Source: Candidatus Brocadia sp.
GTDB taxonomy: Bacteria; Planctomycetota; Brocadiia; Brocadiales; Brocadiaceae
Direction of reading: 5' to 3'
Length of the DNA stretch: 64,000 nucleotides
NCBI GenBank assembly: GCA_011525665.1
Contig: WYAU01000075.1
Span: 1-64,000 of the forward strand
The notes under the pieces were generated by a model that saw only the letters and a list, made by a program, of their open reading frames with translations, was not told the origin of the DNA and searched no databases. Positions within the stretch are counted from its first letter, which is position 1; each line of letters begins with the position of its first letter. Below are positions 18,770 through 22,713 of the stretch, piece by piece. Both the position numbers and the translations under genes were made by a program.

Positions 18770-19381
18770 TTACTTTTTTTGCAACCGGAGTCCAATTTCT
18801 GCAAGCCTGCGCCCTAAAGCACGGCATATTATAGCCTCATGCTGGTCAATTTCCCGCTGGCTGTCCTGTCCTGCGATATGACCGGGTCCGTATGGGGAAC
18901 CACCGCCCTGTGTAGTAAATAATTCTTTTACGGAGTAGGGTACACCCACAAGGATCATGCCGAGATGCAAGAGAGGGGCCATGAGGGTAAGAATCGTTGT
19001 TTCCTGTCCTCCGTGAAGACTTGCGGTAGAGACAAAGATGCCAGCCGTCTTGCCTTCTAATTCCCCTGCAAACCACAGTGATGTAAGTTGGTCAATCTGG
19101 TTTTTCAATTGTGCAGACACGTTTCCAAACCTGGTCGGTGTCCCAAAAGCAATGGCCCCGGCCTCCCTGAAATCGTCCAATGTAACCTGGGGTATATCTT
19201 TCTGCATTTCTCTCCCTGCCTTCATATCCTCACGGGACTCAATAACAGATGCAGGAATCAGTTCCTGAACCTTGCGGATAACAGGTTCTGCCCCTTTGAT
19301 TTCCCTGACTCCCTCTGCCACAAATTTCGCCATCTTGAATACGTTGCCGTAAGTGCTGTAATAGACAATGAGTACTTTCAT
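18770..19381 (-). CDS. wrbA: NAD(P)H:quinone oxidoreductase, WrbA type
   Basis: A flavodoxin-like FMN enzyme of 203 residues that reduces quinones by two electrons. The FMN phosphate loop Y-Y-S-T-Y-G-N near the N-terminus, P-T-R-F-G-N (about 80-85) and the S-x-x-S-L-H-G-G-Q-E-T segment are typical of WrbA. AAGGG precedes the ATG. It converges on greA with 20 nt between stop codons. The next gene upstream on the strand is an NmrA-like NAD(P)-binding protein, so the two may act together in redox or stress responses; that is inference. Confidence 0.92.
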   Translation of the reverse strand: MKVLIVYYSTYGNVFKMAKFVAEGVREIKGAEPVIRKVQELIPASVIESREDMKAGREMQKDIPQVTLDDFREAGAIAFGTPTRFGNVSAQLKNQIDQLTSLWFAGELEGKTAGIFVSTASLHGGQETTILTLMAPLLHLGMILVGVPYSVKELFTTQGGGSPYGPGHIAGQDSQREIDQHEAIICRALGRRLAEIGLRLQKK

Positions 19382-19441: not shown

Positions 19442-20314
19442 TCATGCTTTACCCCAACCAGTCTTACGCAGCCACGTTTCTAATGTCATCAACTGAGGGT
19501 GCAGACCCCGTAATGCTGGAATATCCGCCTGGAAGCCCTTTTCATTGAACCACTGGAACATTAAGGCCAAATCTTCGCTGAAACTTCTAACCTGCTCGAT
19601 AGACATTTCTACAAAGCGAACGGGCCGACCCATTACCCGGCTAAATATTTCTGACGCCTGGACCATTGTCATCTCATCTCCGGCTAATTCGATCGCTTTC
19701 CCAGTAAAGTTATTGGGTTTTTCGAAAGCCATAGCGACGAATGTACCCAGGTCTTCTGCAGCGAGCATCTGTAATGATTTATCAGGTCGGATTGCTAACG
19801 ATAGCGTACCCCCAAGGATAGATTGCTGGAGATTGAACAAAGGCGAATTAAAGTTATACATAAAAAAGACCGGACGGAAGATGGTTGCAGCCAACTCTAA
19901 AGTACGAATATATTGTTCAATCTCCCACTTGCTCTCAAAGTGAGGGATACCGGTATTCCGCTCGGCACCCGCGACAGAGCTATATACAAGGTGTTCAATT
20001 CCCGTTGCTTTTGCAACATCTGCCAGGGTTTTGCCCTGCCGTATCTCCCCTGCGGTGCCTTGTTCCATAAAGGCTTGCACACTGAAAACCCCATAAACCC
20101 CCTTTAACGCCTGATCCACTGACGCTCGATCATCGAGGTCACCCCTTACTACCTGAACACCTTTTTCTGCCAATGCCCGTGCCGCAGGCTTGGACGGATC
20201 GCGGGTAATGGCCCGTACAGACCAGCCGCTAGCCAACAGGCTGCGTGCTACAGCACCTCCCTGGCTACCTGTGGCACCCGTTACCAGGACTATCTTTCCC
20301 TTATTATTGATCAC
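19442..20314 (-). CDS. NmrA-like NAD(P)-binding protein
   Basis: A 290-residue atypical short-chain dehydrogenase/NmrA family protein. The dinucleotide loop is V-T-G-A-T-G-S-Q-G-G near the N-terminus, followed by R-D-x-S-K-P-A and a V-R-G-D-L-D-D motif. There is no clear Y-x-x-x-K catalytic pair in the usual place, so it may sense redox ratio or act as a quinone/NAD(P)H reductase. The start is a GTG at 20314, supported by AAGGA seven nt upstream. It lies 60 nt upstream of wrbA in the same direction. Confidence 0.85.
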   Translation of the reverse strand: MINNKGKIVLVTGATGSQGGAVARSLLASGWSVRAITRDPSKPAARALAEKGVQVVRGDLDDRASVDQALKGVYGVFSVQAFMEQGTAGEIRQGKTLADVAKATGIEHLVYSSVAGAERNTGIPHFESKWEIEQYIRTLELAATIFRPVFFMYNFNSPLFNLQQSILGGTLSLAIRPDKSLQMLAAEDLGTFVAMAFEKPNNFTGKAIELAGDEMTMVQASEIFSRVMGRPVRFVEMSIEQVRSFSEDLALMFQWFNEKGFQADIPALRGLHPQLMTLETWLRKTGWGKA

Positions 20315-20404: not shown

Positions 20405-21469
20405 TCATTCCTCATCCGGCCTGACTTTAGATTCCTCCGGGACGATCTCAAGAACGAGTTTTTCAGAACGTCGGATAATGTTTAGCTGCGATTCCACCCC
20501 GATCCGATGCTCGGAGAGGAGCTTGTGCAAGTCATCTACGCTCTGAACCGGCTGGTCATCAAGACCTATAATTACATCCCCTTCCCGTAAGCCGGCCCTT
20601 TGGGCAGGGCTGTTGTCCTCAACCGCAATGACCAGTACGCCACTCTCGGCCGGTAAGTTATGGAAAAGCACAAGGCGGCGGTGGAGGAAAATGCTTTGCC
20701 CTGCTACACCAATGTAACCACGGCGGATTTTCCCATCCTTGATAAGCCGTGTCGCAACGAATTTAACCGTGTCAACCGCGATGGCGAAACAGAGGCCTTG
20801 TGCACCCTGGATGATGGCGGTATTGACGCCAATGACTTCTCCACGGGAATTGACGAGCGGACCTCCTGAATTGCCGGGATTGAGTGCGGCATCGGTTTGG
20901 ATGATGCTGTCTATCAACCTCCCGGAACGTGACCGGAGTGAGCGTCCGAGTGCACTTACCACACCGGCAGTTACGGTACATTGAAAGCCATAGGGGTTGC
21001 CAATGGCAATTACGAGCTGGCCTACACGAATAGACTGTGAGTCACCTAAACGTGCATATGCCAGGTCCGGGGCCTGAATTCTGATTACTGCTAAATCTGT
21101 ATCGGGATCATCACCGATCATATCTGCAGAAAAACGACGGCCATCCGAAAGTGTCACTTCAATTTGACCAGCATTATGCACCACGTGGCTGTTGGTGAGA
21201 ATAAATCCATCCGGCGTAAAAATGAACCCCGAGCCGCTGCCAATCATCTGTTGTGACATACGCGGATGAACAGCTTGCCGTTCATTCATTAACTGACGGA
21301 CATTAATATTCACCACTGCCGGGATAACCTTCTCTGATGCACTAACGACGGCCTTTGAATAGGCATCAAGAATCTCTTCATCTGCAGGGGCAACAGCTTC
21401 AGATACCCGCGAACCATCCGGCCCGATTCCCTTGGTAGACACTGTCTGAAAAAGAGGCTCCACAATCAT
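20405..21469 (-). CDS. HtrA/DegP-like trypsin-family protease with one PDZ domain
   Basis: A 354-residue serine protease with the triad His95 (T-N-S-H-V-V), Asp125 (D-T-D-L-A-V) and Ser201 (G-N-S-G-G-P). A single PDZ domain follows at about 255-345 (A-G-L-R-E-G-D-V-I). Unlike most HtrA proteins it has no signal peptide or N-terminal membrane helix, so a cytoplasmic location is suggested. The ATG at 21469 has AAGGA only two nt away; GTG at 21463 is better spaced and equally possible. It lies downstream of the selenoprotein pair, separated by a 20-bp perfect hairpin, so it is probably a separate unit. Confidence 0.9.
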   Translation of the reverse strand: MIVEPLFQTVSTKGIGPDGSRVSEAVAPADEEILDAYSKAVVSASEKVIPAVVNINVRQLMNERQAVHPRMSQQMIGSGSGFIFTPDGFILTNSHVVHNAGQIEVTLSDGRRFSADMIGDDPDTDLAVIRIQAPDLAYARLGDSQSIRVGQLVIAIGNPYGFQCTVTAGVVSALGRSLRSRSGRLIDSIIQTDAALNPGNSGGPLVNSRGEVIGVNTAIIQGAQGLCFAIAVDTVKFVATRLIKDGKIRRGYIGVAGQSIFLHRRLVLFHNLPAESGVLVIAVEDNSPAQRAGLREGDVIIGLDDQPVQSVDDLHKLLSEHRIGVESQLNIIRRSEKLVLEIVPEESKVRPDEE

Positions 21470-21517: not shown

Positions 21518-21560
21518 CCCCCCTCTGTCCCCTCCTTACGAAGGAGGGGACAGAGGGGGG
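21518..21560. repeat. 20-bp perfect hairpin, possible terminator of the selenoprotein operon
   Basis: Arms at 21518-21537 and 21541-21560 are perfectly complementary (C6-TCTGTCCCCTCCTT and its complement) around ACG. No T-run follows on the minus strand, so it is not a canonical intrinsic terminator. A shorter relative (CCCCTCCCTT-G-AAGGGAGGGG) is at 33010-33030, so this is a dispersed palindrome family. Confidence 0.7.
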
Positions 21561-21599: not shown

Positions 21600-22169
21600 T
21601 TATAAAAGCCGATAGGGATGCGCACGCTTTGTCCACTCACTCTCAGGATACCTGGCCTGAAGTTGTTCGTAAGCTTCCTTAAGTCCCTTTGGATTTTTCG
21701 TGTCCTTGTATAAACACACACCTTTCAGGTAAATTGCCTCAGGTGCTGAACTACTTTTAGGAAAATCAGACAAAATCTTCTCCAGGATTGAAAGCGCCTC
21801 TTTGAATGTATTCAAGTCAAAATGGACCTTTGCAATACCCAGCAATAATGAAGGGACCAATTCTTCGGGGGAAAGAAAACCAACCGTCCTGTGGTGCTCT
21901 TTACCTTCTGTATCAAGTATTATAAGGGTCGGAGTCCACTTCAGATTAAAATCGGTGGCCAGGGGTTGAGCATCATAACGGGCACGGAGTGGAATTACCG
22001 AGCTATTAATAAATTCAGCAACATTTTTATTTGGATACGAAACTGCATCCATCTGTTGACAACCGATTCAGCCTGGATTAAAGAAATCAAGTAGCACAGG
22101 CTTTTTCTCTGATCGTGCCTTTGAGAGTGCCATGTCCATCTGCGATTCCCAGGTAATTTTGTTTTCCAT
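21600..22169 (-). CDS. Selenoprotein: thioredoxin-fold protein with UxxC motif and TPR tail
   Basis: Reading the in-frame TGA at 22070-22068 as selenocysteine gives a 189-residue protein. It runs from ATG 22169 (AAGGAGG seven nt upstream) through L-L-D-F-F-N-P-G-U34-I-G-C37-Q-Q-M. Sec34 occupies the first cysteine position of a thioredoxin CxxC. The fold continues with a W-T-P-T-L-I-I-L-D cis-Pro segment, typical of thioredoxin-like thiol reductases. A C-terminal ~75-residue TPR-like region follows. A SECIS-type hairpin starts 16 nt after the UGA. The start is 23 nt after the rhodanese stop, so the two are one operon. No signal peptide; cytoplasmic. Without Sec insertion only a 33-residue peptide would form. 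A cytoplasmic redox partner of the upstream Sec-rhodanese is the simplest inference. Confidence 0.9.
22032..22051 (-). promoter_or_regulatory. Bacterial SECIS element of the thioredoxin-like gene
   Basis: In the minus-strand mRNA a 5-bp stem UGGAU/AUCCA closes a 10-nt loop that begins with G (GCAGUUUCGU). The loop starts 21 nt after the UGA, identical to the spacing in the upstream gene and within the 16-37 nt window of bacterial SECIS elements. Confidence 0.75.
22068..22070 (-). other. UGA selenocysteine codon (Sec34)
   Basis: In-frame TGA at the first redox-active position of the thioredoxin motif, giving U-I-G-C. Coding similarity to the thioredoxin fold continues without a break on both sides. 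Confidence 0.88.
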
Positions 22170-22192
22170 AATCTTGCCTCCTTATAGTAAAG

Positions 22193-22513
22193 TTATGGTT
22201 CAATAGGATAGCCAGCCTTTTTCCATCCATTAACGCCACCACCAAGGGCCTTTGCAAGCTGGTATCCCTTCTTTATAAATTCCGCTGCCAGACCGGCAGC
22301 GCTTGCTTCTTTTGGTCAGCCGCAGTAAAAGACGATTTCCTGATCTTTTGATAATGACACTAACCGTGATTTGAATTCCTGTAGTGAAATCGCTCCCTGT
22401 AGTTTCATTTGCCTGAACGTTGCCTCGTCGTCATATGCGCAGACGAGGAGTGTTGTGCCTGATTTCACCTTTTCATAAACTTCTTGCGGAGTAACGCGTA
22501 AGGGTTCTGTCAT
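22193..22513 (-). CDS. Selenoprotein: rhodanese-like sulfurtransferase with active-site Sec
   Basis: A single-domain rhodanese of 106 residues when the TGA at 22318-22316 is read as selenocysteine. The catalytic loop then reads I-V-F-Y-C-G-U66-P-K-E-A-S-A-A, matching the Y-C-x-C-P-x-E-x-x-S-A loop of rhodaneses, with Sec in place of the sulfur-accepting cysteine. The C-terminal half, encoded after the UGA, is a complete rhodanese end (A-L-G-G-G-V-N-G-W-K-K-A-G-Y-P). ATG 22513 is preceded by GGGAGGTG. A perfect 7-bp SECIS hairpin follows the UGA. It is first in an operon with the Sec-thioredoxin and sits behind a cyclic-dinucleotide riboswitch. Sulfur or selenium transfer, or peroxide-type redox chemistry, are possible roles; the substrate is unknown. 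Confidence 0.92.
22283..22301 (-). promoter_or_regulatory. Bacterial SECIS element of the rhodanese gene
   Basis: In the minus-strand mRNA a perfect 7-bp stem CGCUGCC/GGCAGCG closes the loop GGUCU, the same loop sequence as E. coli fdhF. The loop begins 21 nt after the UGA. Stem, loop and spacing all meet the bacterial SECIS rule. Confidence 0.9.
22316..22318 (-). other. UGA selenocysteine codon (Sec66)
   Basis: In-frame TGA at the catalytic cysteine position of the rhodanese loop, between Y-C-G and P-K-E. Confidence 0.9.
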
Positions 22514-22550
22514 TAAACACCTCCCATTCTTTGCAAAAAATTAGCGGGTT

Positions 22551-22608
22551 AAAAACAAAAAAGCCTTACTGCAAAGATGTTCTGTAAAACATCTTCGGCA
22601 GTAAGGCT
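22551..22608 (-). terminator. Intrinsic terminator of the riboswitch expression platform
   Basis: On the minus strand AGCCTTACTGC (22608-22598) pairs perfectly with GCAGTAAGGCT (22572-22562), and inside it AAGATGTT pairs with AACATCTT around a short loop. TTTTTTGTTTTT follows at 22562-22551. The 5' arm is also the 3' part of the riboswitch aptamer, so the two folds exclude each other. Ligand binding should therefore favour read-through into the selenoprotein genes. Confidence 0.88.
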
Positions 22609-22713
22609 GTCTTTTTATAAGCCGTTTAAACTGTTTAAACGGCTTGTAAGATCCTTTACTTTGCGTCCCCTGATTACTCAGGATTTGCCTTTATCGGAAT
22701 GTTTTTGCTAGTA
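22593..22713 (-). ncRNA. GEMM-I cyclic-dinucleotide riboswitch (c-di-GMP-I class)
   Basis: The minus-strand RNA carries the GEMM-I hallmarks in order. These are A-A-A-G-G-C-A-A-A; then P2 CCUGA/UCAGG closed by the GNRA-type tetraloop GUAA; then the invariant G-G-G-A-C-G-C-A-A-A-G. Next come GGAUCUUA and a variable P3 hairpin with a perfect 12-bp stem (AAGCCGUUUAAA and complement, 22619-22645). The closing G-A-C-A-G-C-C-U-U-A-C-U-G-C-C-G-A-A-G follows. The aptamer 3' end overlaps the terminator. The ligand could be c-di-GMP or, if it belongs to the GEMM-Ib subclass, 3',3'-cGAMP; I do not assign which. Downstream genes are the Sec-rhodanese and Sec-thioredoxin. Confidence 0.9.

Follow-up and report, generated by a model that had tools for sequence, protein, structure and literature searches.

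The DNA analysed here is a stretch of 64,000 nucleotides from the anammox planctomycete Candidatus Brocadia sp., referred to as the window. On its minus strand two short genes follow each other, each interrupted by one in-frame UGA codon, behind a leader which resembles a riboswitch. Are these genes broken, or do they encode selenoproteins, and, in the latter case, which signal would switch them on and for what purpose? Taken as a whole, the locus is fairly likely to be a c-di-GMP-gated selenoprotein operon.

Two genes with in-frame UGA codons

The first gene (Rho, 22193..22513, minus strand) encodes a rhodanese-like predicted selenoprotein of 106 aa with the motif FYC-G-U, and is preceded by a ribosome-binding site, GGGAGGTG, at 22518..22525 (minus strand). 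The second (Trx, 21600..22169, minus strand) encodes a predicted selenoprotein of 189 aa, composed of a DsbD-gamma-like thioredoxin domain and a TPR region, with the motif U-I-G-C. As described in the initial annotation, the two genes are 23 nt apart and each reading frame contains one TGA, with no further stop: it corresponds to residue 66 in Rho (22316..22318) and to residue 34 in Trx (22068..22070), both on the minus strand. Both genes are split by standard gene callers, in agreement with the expectation that an ordinary gene finder would truncate them.

A search of the 3.63 Mb host genome for the selenocysteine (Sec) machinery, as proposed in the initial annotation, identified all of the components sought: a tRNA-Sec, encoded by selC (67.8 bits, anticodon tca), selA, selB, and selD, which contains a TGA of its own (locus L110). 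Absence of the machinery is therefore excluded. Among the relatives, the Kuenenia-like genome G020 has neither a selB over cut-off nor a tRNA-Sec, and carries Cys at the Sec site of Rho; G003 is also devoid of a selB over cut-off and of tRNA-Sec; its rhodanese homologue contains a TGA. A tRNA-Sec but no selB over cut-off was found in G009, and no tRNA-Sec in G014; in these two cases, the missing parts may be assembly gaps.

The UGA codons are conserved at the same sites, and not replaced by random codons, in all of the 14 close Sec-form copies of Rho, as well as in 13/13 close copies of Trx and in 8/8 of the non-anammox Trx orthologues examined, which are 59-71% identical. Some database names in this set (Bacillota, a Proteobacteria MAG) are possibly mis-binned, and sequences, rather than names, were relied upon. 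The dN/dS values on the two sides of the UGA range from 0.05 to 0.28 for Rho and from 0.01 to 0.26 for Trx, and indicate purifying selection on both sides.

The UGAs might alternatively be ordinary nonsense mutations, or assembly errors, within decaying genes, and Rho is indeed decaying in three relatives, by an extra TAA or by loss of the N-terminus. Against such an explanation stand the conservation of the UGA in independent assemblies, extending for Trx beyond the anammox lineage, the purifying selection 3' of the codon, the covarying hairpins described below and the Sec machinery of the genome. Decay is hence regarded as extremely improbable, and comparative sequence evidence refutes it for Trx and for those Rho copies that are intact. 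Rho and Trx are almost certainly selenoproteins, with selenium incorporation predicted at both UGA codons.

SECIS hairpins

A SECIS-type hairpin had been proposed after each UGA, and both candidates show covariation. That of Rho (22283..22301, minus strand) exposes the loop GGUCU, and that of Trx (22033..22050, minus strand) the loop AGUUUC, so that a G falls within the first two loop positions in both, as in bacterial SECIS elements. The loops had been placed exactly 21 nt downstream of the UGA; this distance holds for Rho, and for Trx when only the four outer pairs are considered, but becomes 23 nt when all six pairs are formed.

For Trx, a common six-pair stem was evaluated on 36 sequences, including close, distant and paralogous ones: 97.2% of the cells are paired, 12 cells show double changes, and the covariation score was reached by none of 500 shuffles. 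Within this stem, the third base of a Tyr codon (UAU/UAC, a synonymous change) tracks an Asp/Gly codon on the opposite side. For Rho, the close set alone is indecisive, the score being attained by 32 of 500 shuffles; after the addition of four distant planctomycete sequences, the test, performed on a six-pair stem from which the weakest outer pair was left out, gave 97.2% of paired cells, 4 double-change cells and 0/500 shuffles. The Rho loop is invariably GGUC[U/A/G]; the SECIS loop of E. coli fdhF is GGUCU as well.

The rhodanese-like protein

The Rho sequence matches the rhodanese domain PF00581 with 34.2 bits (3.6e-8), above the gathering threshold of 22.2. Its AlphaFold model (pLDDT 87.5) predicts a strand at residues 59-63, followed by C64 in the place of the canonical Cys and by Sec at position 66; the best fold match of the model is GlpE (Z 16.1, rmsd 2.3, 103 residues), and persulfide enzymes are found among the other matches. 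Where rhodaneses usually feature DVR, Rho reads CAY. The suggestion that each UGA occupies a catalytic cysteine position thus applies to Trx, where Sec aligns with the first Cys of the DsbD-gamma CxxC motif, and not to Rho, where C64 is retained and Sec is found at +2.

In other Planctomycetota the corresponding motif is CxU, CxC or UxU, while one weaker match (L197) reads CDS. This alternation of Cys and Sec at two sites, [C/U]-x-[C/U], is what is seen when the two residues replace each other in a redox pair. It speaks, together with the replacement of DVR by CAY, against Rho being a true sulfurtransferase that carries persulfide instead of acting as a thiol oxidoreductase. Since a sulfurtransferase would also account for the rhodanese fold with GlpE as top structural match, for the conserved canonical Cys position and for the persulfide enzymes among the fold matches, this function is kept as a possible, though not a favoured, alternative to the thiol oxidoreductase reading. 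The [C/U]-x-[C/U] rhodaneses, UxU forms included, offer a natural series on the contribution of Sec to the rhodanese fold.

The CxU motif and the small rhodanese domain are shared with the CxU rhodanese selenoprotein family NF041203 (rhodanese_LYCAU), which corresponds to "rhodanese form 3" in PMC13188914. Each of the 12 Rho proteins aligned gives a match to this model; the window protein, with 65.3 bits against a curated cut-off of 115, is related to the family without being a filed member. Differently from that family, the relatives of Rho also comprise UxU and CxC forms. The UxU rhodaneses L194 and L196, from other Planctomycetota, have Sec at two of three consecutive residues, and both possess a GGUC-loop hairpin like that of Rho. 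In the Brocadia genome G003, the TGA of the rhodanese homologue (L084) stands for the first of the two paired residues (FYUACP), where Sec is also found in the UxU forms.

The thioredoxin-TPR protein

Trx matches PF13098 (Thioredoxin_2) with 47 bits (3.6e-12), above the gathering value of 27, and TPR_6 at 8.1e-9; the alignment with DsbD-gamma derives from the DsbD matches in PDB. No obvious signal peptide was detected. The Trx-TPR model is of moderate confidence only (pLDDT 74.9). Its fold matches include YbbN (3qou), a Trx-TPR chaperedoxin, whose full-length match is poor (rmsd 13.8). In CnoX/YbbN a Trx domain precedes TPR-like helices, as modelled for the window protein; the latter differs in its predicted active-site Sec, and the sequence-family search reported no match to this chaperedoxin. 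The Thioredoxin_2 domain and the replacement of the first Cys by Sec are common to the UxxC selenoproteins of PF13098, named "thiol:disulfide interchange protein" in PMC13188914, from which Trx differs by the TPR region that follows the thioredoxin domain and by a conserved C-terminal sequence of its own, WTKRAYPYRLL.

Another family of Trx-TPR genes with a UGA, less closely related, was also observed, in the host genome (G000:C87:4738-5277) and at L022-L038. The covarying SECIS is common to both families, and the distant one at times forms tandem pairs (G013, G024, G030).

The predicted riboswitch leader

The leader was searched by using covariance models on the whole window. The GEMM-I aptamer of the initial annotation was recovered at 22593..22698 (minus strand), with 61.3 bits against RF03167 (gathering score 59, E 4.9e-12) and 61.7 bits against the parent RF01051 (gathering score 35), the match that had been called for. 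The best Rfam model for this aptamer is c-di-GMP-I-GGC. Minor matches to mir-4680, mir-3688 and PyrR are far under their gathering scores and were discarded as chance.

The overlapping intrinsic terminator was likewise confirmed. It spans 22557..22608 (minus strand), and consists of a 47-nt hairpin (22562-22608) and a T-run, with a folding energy of -29.0 kcal/mol; this long terminator was missed by a simple terminator scan and revealed by folding. Its 5' arm, 22593-22608, is AGCCTTACTGCCGAAG, a stretch that also serves the aptamer as its 3' strand. GEMM-I aptamers are also located 5' of Rho/Trx at six further loci (L069, L071, L072, L074, L077, L081), where the same overlap was found by folding, with terminators between -18.8 and -27.4 kcal/mol, for a total of seven loci with this design. 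The aptamer and terminator folds are mutually exclusive, and the ligand should therefore block termination: the architecture of the leader predicts what is probably a ligand-ON switch. A mobile-looking palindrome, GGGCGTATTGCAATACGCCC, lies within the variable loop of the aptamer in L071, and between terminator and gene in L077.

As to the ligand, c-di-GMP and cGAMP had both been considered. Position 20 of the aptamer is a G (AAAGGCAAA), as in the listed aptamers of the host genome; we take this position to be G in c-di-GMP binders and A in the cGAMP-binding GEMM-Ib RNAs. Since the aptamer has G where GEMM-Ib has A, c-di-GMP is the expected ligand, and its assignment, predicted from the sequence, is highly likely. 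Binding of 3',3'-cGAMP could be envisaged, as GEMM-Ib aptamers are closely related and extracellular metal respiration in Geobacter is under cGAMP signalling control (PMC6456294); both the G at position 20, in the window and in the listed aptamers of the genome, and the top Rfam model make it improbable. In keeping with c-di-GMP as the predicted ligand, we note 20 GGDEF domain matches in the host genome.

Aptamer and expression platform are those of known c-di-GMP-I riboswitches with an overlapping terminator, from which the window leader differs in that its target genes encode predicted selenoproteins. No GEMM element was found before Trx in the Jettenia loci examined or in the non-anammox homologues, nor before the rhodaneses of the other Planctomycetota examined; riboswitch control of Rho/Trx was found only in Brocadia and in one sister genus.

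Distribution and pairing of the two genes

The Rho-Trx arrangement, whose conservation in related genomes was to be checked, is kept in several Brocadia species and in one sister genus. Rho adjoins Trx in eight loci, with spacers of 23 to about 240 nt; in three of these, Rho is damaged. Degraded copies of Rho occur in G001, G008 and G009, and four other genomes (G010 and Jettenia) have no Rho beside Trx, whereas Trx is intact in all of them. The two genes are apart in Jettenia (G015, G022, G026), and Rho is found without a close copy of Trx in G013 and G021. A Sec-rhodanese was also sought beside the non-anammox Trx genes and not found; weaker CxU rhodaneses occur elsewhere in two such genomes.

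These data bear on the proposal that the two proteins form an obligate pair, in which the Sec of Trx would reduce a selenenylsulfide of Rho. UxxC thioredoxins are in principle able to reduce selenenylsulfides, and the adjacency in eight loci, the three with damaged Rho included, is consistent with such a pair. On the other side, Rho and Trx are separated in Jettenia, Rho occurs without a close copy of Trx in two genomes, and Trx remains in genomes with a broken Rho or none; as Rho is repeatedly lost while Trx persists, an obligate couple is doubtful and must be rated unlikely. Direct reduction of Rho by Trx, as put forward in the initial annotation, is similarly unlikely.

Gene neighbourhood and proposed function

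Downstream of Trx, on the same strand, the window contains an HtrA/Deg-type serine protease with PDZ (20405..21469, PF13365 2.1e-36; degP_htrA_DO 1.2e-97, under the cut-off of this model), an NmrA-like NAD(P)-binding protein (19442..20314, PF05368 2.2e-68) and a WrbA NAD(P)H:quinone oxidoreductase (18770..19381, TIGR01755 1.7e-57, above cut-off). HtrA is also present in the clusters of L070, L071 and L077, and WrbA in these as well as in L080. Pirin, a YcaC-like (isochorismatase-type) hydrolase, HtrA and WrbA recur around Rho/Trx in the anammox loci. Elsewhere, Hsp20 and Lon come after Trx in three Desulfobulbaceae loci, and a glutaredoxin and the catalytic chain of ferredoxin-thioredoxin reductase (FTR) in L100.

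Gene order and strand suggest that the transcription unit probably extends past Trx into these redox and protein-quality genes, HtrA being a probable member. A shared Trx-HtrA transcript is uncertain, because the two genes are separated by a gap of 130 nt containing a palindrome. The palindrome (21518-21560, 20-bp) is present in one copy in the window, and is not followed by a T-run on the minus strand. Neighbours and folds point to redox and protein-quality stress.

In the proposed mechanism, the leader would form the strong terminator when ligand is absent, and transcription would halt ahead of the genes; c-di-GMP would hold the strand shared by aptamer (3' side) and terminator (5' arm) within the aptamer, and polymerase would read on, as the mutually exclusive pairing suggests. 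SelB and Sec-tRNA would then decode one UGA per gene, aided by the hairpin just 3' of it, a step with strong comparative support. The products would be a small protein of rhodanese fold, in which C-x-U forms the redox pair, and a DsbD-gamma-like UxxC thioredoxin with a C-terminal TPR, of chaperedoxin-like build. The two genes would head a cluster with pirin, the YcaC-like hydrolase, HtrA and the quinone reductase WrbA, and from this company the most likely role would be thiol/quinone redox repair tied to protein quality control, in the attached or granule state in which c-di-GMP is high. The chances that the locus serves such a redox/proteostasis stress role are about even.

The initial annotation had a cyclic dinucleotide gating a selenium-dependent redox couple: riboswitch and selenoproteins stand, cGAMP is unlikely, the strict couple is unsupported and the unit is probably longer. 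More tentatively, c-di-GMP may directly control selenium-dependent redox repair, a seleno-chaperedoxin and a Sec-rhodanese of the unusual [C/U]-x-[C/U] type being switched on when anammox bacteria go sessile. If true, this would tie the synthesis of selenoproteins to signalling in biofilms. High c-di-GMP is expected in the granules inhabited by anammox bacteria, and selenium supply is thus predicted to affect the redox robustness of wastewater-treatment granules.

Relation to known systems

Precedents exist for CxU rhodaneses, for UxxC thioredoxins, for selenoprotein operons (grdAB, Sao, Tso) and for c-di-GMP-I switches (PMC13188914; PMC7266159). None of the parts is new in kind, and what is new, within the literature searched, is the combination; the statement that no described system combines these parts is borne out within the same limits. 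No cyclic-dinucleotide (second-messenger) riboswitch controlling selenoprotein genes was found in the literature searched, and the word riboswitch is absent from PMC13188914. Among the papers matching anammox and selenocysteine, the one consulted, which is the most anammox-centred, mentions selenocysteine in a reference title only.

The Tso operon of three selenoproteins (TsoB, NF045694) resembles the window in having multiple selenoprotein genes per operon, with rhodanese and DsbD-like parts. TsoB is a single fused protein with UxxxxU, whereas Rho and Trx are encoded by separate genes; the window proteins match it weakly, with 18 and 45 bits against a cut-off of 805, and do not belong to this family.

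Other c-di-GMP-I aptamers of the host genome

The host genome (G000) contains 35 c-di-GMP-I aptamers (L128, L142-L170), and members of the genus between 20 and 56. Tandem aptamers occur at C17:10676/10963 and 8997/9212. The protein encoded downstream of L157 is without a Pfam match and looks, by eye, like a contractile tail sheath. Genes located 3' of other aptamers encode a GGDEF protein (L156), a NapC-like cytochrome (L128), a sigma-54 activator (L152), a UDP-GlcNAc 2-epimerase (L167) and a PRC-barrel protein (L160).
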